64,000 bases of DNA from assembly GCA_934338065.1 (NCBI GenBank), contig CAKRGX010000002.1:136167-200166 (forward strand), written 5' to 3'. Below are positions 56,783-64,000 of the stretch, one piece after another; position 1 is the first letter of the stretch; every line of letters starts with the position of its first letter. Origin of the DNA: an uncultured Eubacterium sp. Lineage in GTDB: Bacteria; Bacillota; Clostridia; Lachnospirales; Lachnospiraceae. A program made the translations under genes and the position numbers. Under the pieces are notes generated by a model, which saw only the letters and a program-made list of their open reading frames with translations, did no database searches and had not been told where the DNA came from.

Positions 56783-59362
56783 TCACTCTTCAAGCCATTC
56801 CCGCATCTCTTCGCTCACCCGGCTTATCTCCCGCTCAAACTCTCTTGCCGAGATTAACCGACACCCTGCTCCGCGAATGATAATCTGCTCTAATCCATCT
56901 GATGTTGCCACCGTGATCTGATATTTTTTACTGTTTTCATGAGCAAATTTTTCTATATACTGATCTGCTGTCTCAGCTTCTTTTGTGTAGACGACATGAA
57001 TATTATGATAGTCAAGGATCTCTGCCCTATGATTCTGCACACGGTATGCGTCAAACACCAGAATCACTTCGTATTTTTTATACCCCTGATAATTGCACAG
57101 AATATCCATCAATTTATCCCTTGCTGCCGCAATATCCACTTTCGCTAGAGAATGTAATTCATCCCAGGCAAAAATGATATTATAGCCATCTACAAGAAGG
57201 TATTTTTTATCTGTCACCGGTTTCTTTCCCGGTTTTGACAATCCGGTTGGTCTCGCTTGTACCGACCGCACACGCTTTTCGCCACTCCTTCGGTTTGCAT
57301 AAGACGTTCTCTCCAGAATACGATCCACTTCTTCTGTGTCGATCCACTCCTCTTTCTGTAACGATTTTCCTGAATCTTCCCGGTTTTCATCCGGCTGTTC
57401 TGACAAATTCCGGATTTTCTTTCCCTCTATATGCATATAATGACGAACCTCATTCCACGGCACATAAAAACCCGCTCCATGAGAGCAGAATACAGACCCG
57501 GACGGATGATCCAGATCACTCTCCGGATCATAACGCATGCTCTGTATCACTTCATCCGCATTATGACAAGGCCGGTAACCCGTCAGAGAGCAAAAAAGTC
57601 TTCCTTCTCCTTTGGTATAAGCCGTAACTTCCCTCGAATAATCCCGCATAGTGCTGACAGGAGCCTCCCCGGTCAGTATTGACATCCCTCTCTCTGCCGG
57701 TTCAAGAGAGAAACTTCCCGCCATTCTCTCCACATCTGTCATTGCTCTCCCTATGGATGCCTCCGGCACCTCCAGACGATATCGATAATACGGTTCTAAC
57801 AACACGGATTCTGTCTGCATCAATCCCTGTCTCACCGCACGGTACGTTGCCTGACGGAAATCCCCTCCTTCGGTATGCTTCAAATGTGCTTTTCCTGCTA
57901 TCAACGTAATTTTAACATCGGTAAGTGCAGAACCAGTCAGCACACCTTTATGCTCACGTTCCAGCAAATGAGTTAAGATCAGCCTCTGCCAGTTCTTGTC
58001 TAACAGATCTTCGCTGCATTCCGTTCCAATCTGAATACCACTCCCCGGCTCCCCCGGTTCCATCCATAGATGAACTTCTGCATAATGCCGCAATGGTTCG
58101 TAATGTCCCACTCCTTCTGCCGGCTGACAGATTGTCTCTTTATAAACAATATTTCCTGTTCCAAAAGAAACATCCAAGCCAAATCGTTCCCGTATCACTC
58201 TCTGTAAAATTTCAATCTGCACCTCTCCCATAACCTGTGCCTGGATCTCCTGTAGCTTTTCATTCCACACCACATGTAGTTCCGGCTGTTCTTCCTCCAG
58301 TTCACGTAGTTTAGGAAGAAATGCTGCCACATCACATCCCTCCGGCAAGCCAACCCGATACGTAAGAACCGGCTCCAGTACCGGCTTTACCACTCCCTGT
58401 TCCCATCCAAGTCCCTGCCCCGGATACGTCTCTGACAATCCCGTAACAGCACAGATTGTACCAGCCCCTGCTTCCGTGACACTTGCAAAACGGTCTCCGG
58501 AATAAATCCGGATCTGATTTACTTTTTCTGTTTTATCCGGCGCAGCAGATAATTCCATGCGTGCCGTCATAACACCACCGGTAATTTTCAGATGCGTCAA
58601 CCGGTTTCCCTGCGCATCCCTTGCAATCTTAAAAACTCGTGCCCCAAATTTTTCTGCATAATTCTTTTCACATGTATACCGGTCCAGTGCCTCTAATAAT
58701 TCATCCACACCATTCATTTTCAAAGCGGAGCCAAAAAAGCAGGGATACACTTTTCTTCTTAAGATAAGCCCTGGTAATTGCTCTTGACCAATATCCCCCT
58801 GTTGCAAATACCGGTCCAGCAGCTTCTCATCACAAAGTGCGATCTGTTCCTTCCATTCTTCACTATTCACATCGGTAAAGTCTACAATATTATCCGACAG
58901 CCGCTCTTTTAGTTCCTTCGTGACACATCCCACATCGGTTCCCGGCTGATCCATTTTATTTACAAAGAGAAACACCGGTACCTCATACTGCTTTAACAGA
59001 CGCCAAAGTGTCTGTGTATGCCCCTGCACCCCGTCTGCTCCGCTGATCACAAGAACCGCATAATCCAATACCTGTAAAGTGCGCTCCATCTCCGCCGAAA
59101 AATCAACGTGTCCCGGCGTATCCAGTATCGTAAGTCTCATATCAGCGGTTTCTAAAACTGCCTGCTTAGAAAAAATTGTGATACCACGCTCCTTTTCCAG
59201 ATCAAACGTATCAAGATACGCATCCCCTTTATCTACCCTGCCAGCCGAACGAATCTTTCCCGCCTTATACAAAAGCCCCTCCGACAGTGTCGTCTTCCCG
59301 GCATCTACGTGGGCCAGCATTCCCACACAAATGTTTTTTTTCTTTTTTTGTGCATCACTCAA
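56783..59362 (-). CDS. TetM/EF-G-like ribosomal GTPase fused to a YacP/Rae1-like NYN nuclease domain
   Basis: 859 residues. Residues 1-640 match translation GTPases of the tetracycline ribosomal-protection type: G1 AHVDAGKTT (17-25), ERGITI (switch I), DTPGHVDF (G3), NKMD (G4), EF-G-like domains III to V, and a C-terminal YRPC-type region. A variable linker (about 640-718) follows, then an NYN/PIN domain like YacP (residues 719-859) with the acidic residues Asp725 in VDGYN, Asp771 in VFDAY, Asp800 in TADQY and Asp822 in TSDG. Rae1/YacP cuts mRNA in the ribosomal A-site, so a ribosome-bound GTPase carrying its own nuclease is a coherent fusion. The start is TTG behind GGAGGGGG. Resistance to tetracycline cannot be inferred. 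Confidence 0.9.
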   Translation of the reverse strand: MSDAQKKKKNICVGMLAHVDAGKTTLSEGLLYKAGKIRSAGRVDKGDAYLDTFDLEKERGITIFSKQAVLETADMRLTILDTPGHVDFSAEMERTLQVLDYAVLVISGADGVQGHTQTLWRLLKQYEVPVFLFVNKMDQPGTDVGCVTKELKERLSDNIVDFTDVNSEEWKEQIALCDEKLLDRYLQQGDIGQEQLPGLILRRKVYPCFFGSALKMNGVDELLEALDRYTCEKNYAEKFGARVFKIARDAQGNRLTHLKITGGVMTARMELSAAPDKTEKVNQIRIYSGDRFASVTEAGAGTICAVTGLSETYPGQGLGWEQGVVKPVLEPVLTYRVGLPEGCDVAAFLPKLRELEEEQPELHVVWNEKLQEIQAQVMGEVQIEILQRVIRERFGLDVSFGTGNIVYKETICQPAEGVGHYEPLRHYAEVHLWMEPGEPGSGIQIGTECSEDLLDKNWQRLILTHLLEREHKGVLTGSALTDVKITLIAGKAHLKHTEGGDFRQATYRAVRQGLMQTESVLLEPYYRYRLEVPEASIGRAMTDVERMAGSFSLEPAERGMSILTGEAPVSTMRDYSREVTAYTKGEGRLFCSLTGYRPCHNADEVIQSMRYDPESDLDHPSGSVFCSHGAGFYVPWNEVRHYMHIEGKKIRNLSEQPDENREDSGKSLQKEEWIDTEEVDRILERTSYANRRSGEKRVRSVQARPTGLSKPGKKPVTDKKYLLVDGYNIIFAWDELHSLAKVDIAAARDKLMDILCNYQGYKKYEVILVFDAYRVQNHRAEILDYHNIHVVYTKEAETADQYIEKFAHENSKKYQITVATSDGLEQIIIRGAGCRLISAREFEREISRVSEEMREWLEE

Positions 59363-59470
59363 CGAAAATCCCCCTCCTTTTGATTTTTAATACATCCCTT
59401 CTCAGTTTTCTTCATCATTTATCACCCCTGCAAAAAATTCTGTATGAAAAAAGTAACTACAACCGTTAAT

Positions 59471-59521
59471 ATAAAGCAGGTACAAGAAACTCTGTCAAAG
59501 AGCTTTTTGCACCTGCTTTAT
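59471..59521 (-). terminator. Hairpin after pheA
   Basis: ATAAAGCAGGTACA and TGCACCTGCTTTAT form a 14-bp stem; the one non-identical position is a G-U pair on the minus strand. No long U-run follows, so it is a probable rather than certain terminator. The stretch 59363-59549 holds nothing else. Confidence 0.5.
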
Positions 59522-63240: not shown

Positions 63241-64000
63241 TTAATAAACATCCGAATTCAGGATATCCTGAAAATCATCGACAGAGGCATAAACTTTCCC
63301 CTTCCATGTGATGCTGGTCAAGCCACTGCAACCATCAAATGCACTTCCTCCTATCTCCGTCACGCTGTCTGGTATCGTGATACTCGTCAGGCCACTGCAG
63401 TTTTCAAATGCATTTTCTCCTATCTCCGTCACACTGTCCGGTATCGTGATACTCGTCAGACCACTGCAGCCAGAAAATGCATACTCTCCTATCTCCGTTA
63501 CCCCTGACGGTACTTTTGTATTTTTACAACCTGCAATCAACGTATTACTGGATGTTTCAATGATTGCATTACAATTCTCTCTGCTGTCATATACTTTATT
63601 ATTTTCCTCTACTTTGATACTTTCCAGGCCACTGCAGCCAGAAAATGCACACTGTCCTATCTCCGTCACGCTGTCTGGTATCGTAATACTCGTCAGGCCA
63701 CTGCAGTTTTCAAATGCACTTTCTCCTATCTCCGTCACGCTGTCTGGTATCGTGATACTCGTCAGACCACTGCAGCCATAAAATGCATACCCTCCTATCT
63801 CCGTCACACTGTCTGGTATCGTAATACTCGTCAGGCCACTGCAGCCTTCAAATGCATACCATCCTATCTCCGTCACTCCATCCTTAACAATGACGTTTAC
63901 TTTCCCCCCTGTATTCTCAATCTCATCTGAATTTGTTCCATCGTACACGATTGTCACAATCCGCGAATTATATGCAGCCATAAAATCATTGACGGTGGTA
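63241..64000 (-). CDS. BspA-like leucine-rich-repeat surface protein (N-terminus cut by window edge)
   Basis: The frame is open to the right edge, so at least 252 residues of a longer protein are present. The region is built from 23-residue LRR_5 units of the type VTEIGxxAFxxCSGLTSITIPDS. A 56-residue interval between the two blocks contains a variant unit (LESIKVEENNKVYDS..., NTLIAGCKNTKVPSG). It ends with a WKGKVYASVDDFQDIL cap. Such proteins are secreted or wall-bound and often bind host or bacterial surfaces; signal peptide and anchor lie outside the window. Confidence 0.88.
   Translation of the reverse strand, partial: TTVNDFMAAYNSRIVTIVYDGTNSDEIENTGGKVNVIVKDGVTEIGWYAFEGCSGLTSITIPDSVTEIGGYAFYGCSGLTSITIPDSVTEIGESAFENCSGLTSITIPDSVTEIGQCAFSGCSGLESIKVEENNKVYDSRENCNAIIETSSNTLIAGCKNTKVPSGVTEIGEYAFSGCSGLTSITIPDSVTEIGENAFENCSGLTSITIPDSVTEIGGSAFDGCSGLTSITWKGKVYASVDDFQDILNSDVY
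63322..63515. repeat. 69-bp tandem repeats in the LRR gene, block 1
   Basis: The GCCACTGCA landmark recurs at 63322, 63391 and 63460, exactly 69 bp apart; the copies are nearly identical in DNA, not only in protein. Confidence 0.85.
63628..63880. repeat. 69-bp tandem repeats in the LRR gene, block 2
   Basis: The same landmark recurs at 63628, 63697, 63766 and 63835, again with a 69-bp period. The offset to block 1 is 168 bp (56 codons). Confidence 0.85.

Follow-up and report, generated by a model that had tools for sequence, protein, structure and literature searches.

Rae1 (YacP) of Bacillus subtilis and the ribosomal protection proteins TetM and TetO are among the closest known counterparts of the protein reported here. 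Two studies describe Rae1 as an endoribonuclease acting in the A site of the ribosome (PMC6613710; PMC12320835), and one of them places rlmB/yacO, a homologue of a 23S rRNA methyltransferase, in one pathway with rae1 through an efp suppressor test (PMC6613710). For TetM, the action is attributed to Pro509 at C1054 (PMC8161019). A combination of the two systems has been in print since 2015, when a YacP-like NYN domain was recognized on Tet proteins from ten species of the Clostridiales and resistance by way of an RNase was suggested (Atkinson 2015; PMC4342817), which agrees with the surmise in the initial annotation of this locus that the architecture might be known. The fusions of that report share the architecture of the present protein and very likely belong to the same family; there they are read as Tet proteins, whereas the present analysis points to a genome's sole Rae1, relocated onto a GTPase that is not of the Tet type. 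A literature search found no later work on the fusion, and Condon 2018, whose title concerns the distribution of Rae1, may already mention such proteins. New, as far as these searches reach, are the exclusivity of one Rae1 per genome, the exit of the gene from the rlmB-sigH locus, the non-Tet tip of the GTPase, and the reading of the gene as a GTPase-coupled Rae1 to which these three observations lead.

Architecture and conservation of the fused gene

The gene (Table 1) lies in the window, the whole stretch of 64,000 nucleotides analysed here, and its frame of 859 amino acids contains no internal stop and begins and ends exactly where the initial annotation had placed it. Pfam profiles recover GTP_EFTU at residues 9-230 (182.5 bits), EF-G_D2 at 239-312, EFG_III at 330-401 (26.1 bits, slightly below its cut-off of 27), EFG_IV at 404-517 and EFG_C at 520-601, which together with the G motifs identify an EF-G-type translational GTPase with domains II to V. 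The Rae1/YacP profile (NYN_YacP, PF05991) follows at residues 722-855 with 168.1 bits, against a curated cut-off of 24.6, so that these domains and four conserved aspartates confirm a GTPase and a Rae1-type NYN nuclease on one chain. The nuclease had also been called complete: its four acidic residues are present, but the profile is matched at positions 1-136 of 166 and the C-terminal tail typical of Rae1 is absent. In the AlphaFold model (52 sequences; mean pLDDT 78.9, pTM 0.60), a prediction proposed at the outset, the ends are folded and nearly all of the linker falls below 50. A fold search using the whole model as query listed GTPase matches alone.

Table 1. Position of the fusion gene and its parts in the window
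Feature	Coordinates	Strand	Remarks
Whole gene, 859 codons and stop	56783..59362	minus	TTG start at 59362; read from 59362 down to 56783
AGGAGG, likely ribosome-binding site	59373..59378	minus	Ten bases ahead of the TTG, by eye
EF-G/TetM-type GTPase, residues 9-641	57440..59338	minus	G domain, II, III, IV, V and a short stretch that aligns to the last part of TetM
Domain IV tip, residues 490-503	57854..57895	minus	GKAHLKHTEGGDFR; Lys495 at the place of TetM Pro509
Variable linker, residues 650-717	57212..57415	minus	Mostly low-confidence in the model
Conserved island in linker, residues 678-682	57317..57331	minus	E678 in 174/175 and I682 in 172/175 aligned fused proteins
Rae1/YacP NYN nuclease domain, residues 722-855	56798..57199	minus	Profile positions 1-136 of 166
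Asp725 codon (first aspartate of the active site)	57188..57190	minus	

Both PF05991 and the GTPase domain occur in all 120 homologues listed (120 of 7985, the window's own protein among them), and 80 loci from genome records encode relatives that match nearly end to end; a chance or assembly join can therefore be dismissed, and the expectation of similar long GTPases in gut clostridia is borne out by many relatives. In an alignment of fused relatives comprising 175 rows, many of them close to each other, Asp725, Asp771, Asp800 and Asp822 are each present in 175/175, and the same holds for Asn728 and Glu804; in the GTPase part, Thr62 of switch I, DTPGH and NKMD are invariant, and the P-loop residues 22-25 are found in 174/175, with one gap. 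Because of too strict a start pattern or a length filter, 27 of 82 loci are missing from this alignment, and so is the copy of the window itself (P0002). A second alignment of 52 rows, which includes some of the dropped loci, again places the four aspartates, Asn728 and Glu804 in invariant columns. Conservation of the acidic cluster in orthologues, on which the initial annotation had staked its proposal, hence holds in both alignments. The four aspartates are taken to be the catalytic residues of the nuclease.

The tryptophan at residue 636 and Asp725 are separated in the fused proteins by a median of 94 residues, with a maximum of 135 and never fewer than 80 (175-row alignment), and by about 94 in the window protein. 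The sequence of the linker varies, yet the mid-linker residues E678 and I682 are nearly invariant (Table 1), and unfused orthologues of the GTPase stop ahead of this island. The island is a possible docking motif, and a linker that is never short leaves it possible that the nuclease could reach the decoding site.

Relationship of the two parts to Tet proteins and to Rae1

By sequence, TetO and TetM are the solved structures nearest to the GTPase part; the domain set is shared, and solved TetM aligns to residues 8-641 of the window protein. The latter differs from them in the tip of domain IV, in its profile score, in its position in the tree and in the added nuclease. With the NCBIfam tet_protect model it scores 419.1 bits, against a cut-off of 775 and the 1000.8 bits that one clostridial Tet type reaches, and with the model for housekeeping EF-G (TIGR00484) it scores 281.1 bits against a cut-off of 659.4. 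Lys495 aligns to Pro509 of TetM, and the TetM tip is missing: a tip of the form AHxKHTEGGDFR is common to the fused orthologues and, with small changes, to unfused ones, while four Tet types carry YYSPVSTP(A/S)DFR, in a comparison that omitted L005, L035, L037, L081, L082 and L128. The divergent L098 keeps KHTE alone of this tip, and L063 has T for K. In a GTPase tree five other protection-type proteins branch apart from the clade (SH-aLRT 100). Judged on score, tip and tree, this is probably not a TETRACYCLINE protein. The initial interpretation is supported in part, namely for the two domains on one chain and their conserved residues, but the label "TetM-like", taken as denoting a drug factor, is not supported: the tet_protect score is below the cut-off, the TetM domain IV tip is lacking, and true Tet proteins lie apart in the tree. 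Furthermore, 4 of 53 genomes with a fusion also hold a Tet-type protein (by score and length, E 1e-100).

Nearest to the fused proteins in the tree is a group of unfused GTPases from Clostridia (L083-L090, open frames of 655-671 aa), which have the similar tip KHTxGGDFREA and end near residue 650 of the window protein, without the linker island or the nuclease. A candidate metal site (C599/H600/C626/H628) found no support, since K stands at the last of these places in six of the unfused orthologues (eight compared).

The nuclease part matches solved B. subtilis YacP/Rae1 (5mq9) with E 1.2e-23, and the nuclease domain and its active-site aspartates are common to both (5mq8, 5mq9). The B. subtilis protein is free and its gene adjoins yacO/rlmB, whereas the window nuclease is fused, lacks the C-terminal tail and is encoded elsewhere in the genome, next to genes other than the rlmB and sigH that typically, though not definingly, flank rae1. 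A match to at least position 160 of 166, taken as presence of the tail, was found in 45/46 free and 20/52 fused proteins in a sample of the class (excluding G087, with a cut match, and the split copy in G060), and in 90/97 free and 11/12 fused proteins in a sample of the phylum. The loss-of-function suppressor change R166P of B. subtilis lies in this tail (PMC6613710). The idea that its loss signals replacement by the GTPase was not upheld, 11 of the 12 fused proteins of the phylum sample keeping it. Since many fused relatives retain the tail, although the window protein does not, it argues neither way.

Distribution of Rae1 and origin of the fusion

Evidence on the number of Rae1 copies comes from the genomes of relatives. 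Each of 16 genomes of fused loci has one PF05991 match (16/16). In the class to which Roseburia inulinivorans belongs, the Clostridia, PF05991 was matched in 100 of 147 genomes: in 53 the frame is of fusion size (734-937 aa; G087 is counted here, with its match cut), in 46 it is free (168-216 aa), and in one (G060) it is split. In the last case (L091, 1130-3759) the GTPase and the nuclease lie in two overlapping frames, through a frameshift in the genome or in its assembly. None of the 147 has two matches over the cut-off, the second match in G136 lying below it. A sample of 199 genomes of the phylum, sharing at least five with the class sample, gave 110 matches (12 fused, 97 free and one below the cut-off) and no genome with two; two of the 97 free matches fall in frames of about 300 aa, yet have the usual rlmB-like and sigH-like genes on either side.

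A profile built from the GTPase part and run on a sample that equals the class sample in size and handles found orthologues above 700 bits in 61 genomes: all 53 with the fusion, G060, three with a free Rae1 (G076, G122 and G144) and four lacking a PF05991 match, which hold an unfused GTPase (L087-L090, in G070, G041, G044 and G084, respectively). No orthologue above 700 bits was found in 43 of the 46 genomes with a free Rae1; a further genome with a free Rae1, G162, reaches 472 bits over part of the protein, yet the tip of the clade is present. The three samples were drawn at 90% completeness, with no values shown for individual genomes, which may hence be incomplete.

Free rae1 has its customary place in the order rlmB-rae1-sigH. 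In the 26 free loci that were opened, out of 46, the gene lies next to rlmB and/or sigH (26/26), in 20 of them between the two (the sigH match being weak in L121) and in the remaining six beside one. In contrast, rae1 is absent from about 3.7 kb around rlmB in 8/8 genomes with the fusion. In six of these eight sigH follows rlmB after 0, 3, 9, 24, 118 and 583 bases, and in the other two no sigH lies within the stretch fetched around rlmB. Rae1 thus seems to have left its old locus and to live on as the tail of a GTPase. As fused and free forms were not found together in the genomes sampled and rae1 is missing beside rlmB in the eight, the fusion carries the sole Rae1 of these relatives, a point that the initial annotation had missed, and we infer the same state for the window's own genome. 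The gene names used here (rlmB, sigH, mrnC, thyX, trxA, trxB, pheA and fol) are assigned by inspection of the sequences rather than by a family search.

The trees, built with roughly one in three or four of loci L001-L080, are consistent with a single fusion event without proving it. In a nuclease tree of 57 rows, a single group (99/96) unites the split copy with 28 of 30 fused rows, and the nearest free relative of this group (L113; 100/99) still occupies the old locus. The two remaining fused rows (L098 and L100), both on long branches, fall among free rows, so that the fused/free label needs three changes. When L098 was removed together with three free rows on long branches (L119-L121) and a different subset of fused rows was kept, the fused proteins formed one side of a branch with a support of 72/90, which is not strong. 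A quick GTPase tree, for which the program warns of long branches, places the 28 fused rows together (SH-aLRT 98) and an unfused copy from a plasmid among them. This copy (L142; NZ_CP097640.1, 4022-5941), named TetM family and carried by a plasmid of Ligilactobacillus salivarius, is nested among the fused clostridial GTPases and possibly represents a transfer that lost the nuclease.

No partner gene emerges from the neighbourhoods, and a conserved neighbourhood was rejected: trxA was found in two of 80 loci (L001 and L004), many contigs being short. In these two it stands directly behind the fusion gene, as in the window, and L100 looks alike by eye. An inverted repeat (aagcaggt/acctgctt, 59474-59518), terminator-like by eye, lies in the window between a pheA-like gene and the fusion. 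A plasmid origin was not upheld, at least 80% of the protein being found on two of 72,556 plasmid records (252 and 518 kb), 1,362 of which match some part. Nor was a phage origin: the two records named "Bacteriophage sp." (L138, MT835514.1; L139, MT835563.1) are unannotated faecal scaffolds with whole fusions of 869 and 875 aa, and L138 shows ordinary bacterial genes and by eye resembles a bacterial chromosome. Elsewhere in the window (63241-63981) a frame of near-identical leucine-rich repeats (SGLTSITIPDSVTEIG) resembles BspA-type surface proteins.

A proposed GTPase-coupled form of Rae1

Factors of the EF-G/TetM type enter the A site with domain IV. The explanation we consider on balance probable is that the fusion is a chromosomal translation-surveillance factor in which the GTPase would deliver Rae1 to ribosomes that have a vacant A site. 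In the proposed sequence, the GTPase would dock on a paused or stalled ribosome with an empty A site; upon GTP hydrolysis, domain IV would withdraw, and the tethered nuclease would enter the vacated site and cut the mRNA at the A-site codon, after which the broken message would be degraded and the ribosome rescued. As domain IV and Rae1 are both thought to use the A site, simultaneous action is unlikely and the two parts would need to take turns, presumably GTPase before nuclease. The presence of one Rae1 per genome, its relocation from the rlmB-sigH locus and the non-Tet tip support the reading of the gene as a GTPase-coupled form of Rae1, which would be chromosomal housekeeping rather than acquired drug resistance. 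Counted against it are the occurrence of the halves apart elsewhere, the nested unfused copy of Ligilactobacillus, the missing tail of the window protein and the possible incompleteness of the genomes. Since unfused orthologues occur with a free Rae1 or without PF05991, neither half needs the other in principle. The full version of this scheme, in which a single-chain machine would sense the vacant A site and, after GTP hydrolysis and the exit of domain IV, swing its tethered PIN-type nuclease in to cut the codon, we put forward more tentatively, as less likely than not.

The same observation that the halves live apart, together with the unfused L. salivarius plasmid copy nested among fused ones, keeps open a fusion that serves dosage only, in which the GTPase and Rae1 perform separate jobs on the ribosome without a common substrate; the variable sequence of the linker would fit this, but its maintained length and conserved island, and the 53 genomes with a fusion against one split copy, make it unlikely. 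We give still less credence to a tetracycline-resistance protein with an added RNase, whose domain IV would eject the drug and whose nuclease would have ribosomal or stalled RNA as its target. This would be close to the RNase mode of resistance suggested in Atkinson 2015 (PMC4342817), and both the proximity to TetO and TetM among solved structures and the naming of some relatives as TetM/TetW/TetO/TetS family in public records favour it, but a score of 419 bits where the cut-off is 775 and a Tet type reaches 1001, a differing tip with lysine for Pro509, a clade separate from the Tet types, the additional Tet-type protein in 4/53 fusion genomes and the near absence from plasmids (at least 80% of the protein on just 2/72,556 records) all weigh against it. 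Least probable of all is an RNase delivered by the GTPase to rRNA or tRNA for ribosome maturation or decay: PMC4342817 cites a role of the domain in the maturation of rRNA and tRNA, and the usual neighbour rlmB/yacO is the methyltransferase homologue linked to rae1 in the suppressor test, yet the studied relative is described as cutting mRNA in the A site (PMC6613710; PMC12320835), and this analysis found no pointer to rRNA.

Under the preferred reading as a GTPase-coupled Rae1, a nuclease with a built-in translational GTPase makes recruitment to ribosomes testable with one protein. In eukaryotes a rescue GTPase is paired with a no-go-decay nuclease, and the single-chain machine, if real, would be a one-protein bacterial counterpart of that pairing and would replace free Rae1 across a large part of the clostridia. 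Lastly, because some relatives are named in public records as members of the TetM/TetW/TetO/TetS resistance family, gut surveys can count as tetracycline resistance a gene that may belong to chromosomal housekeeping.
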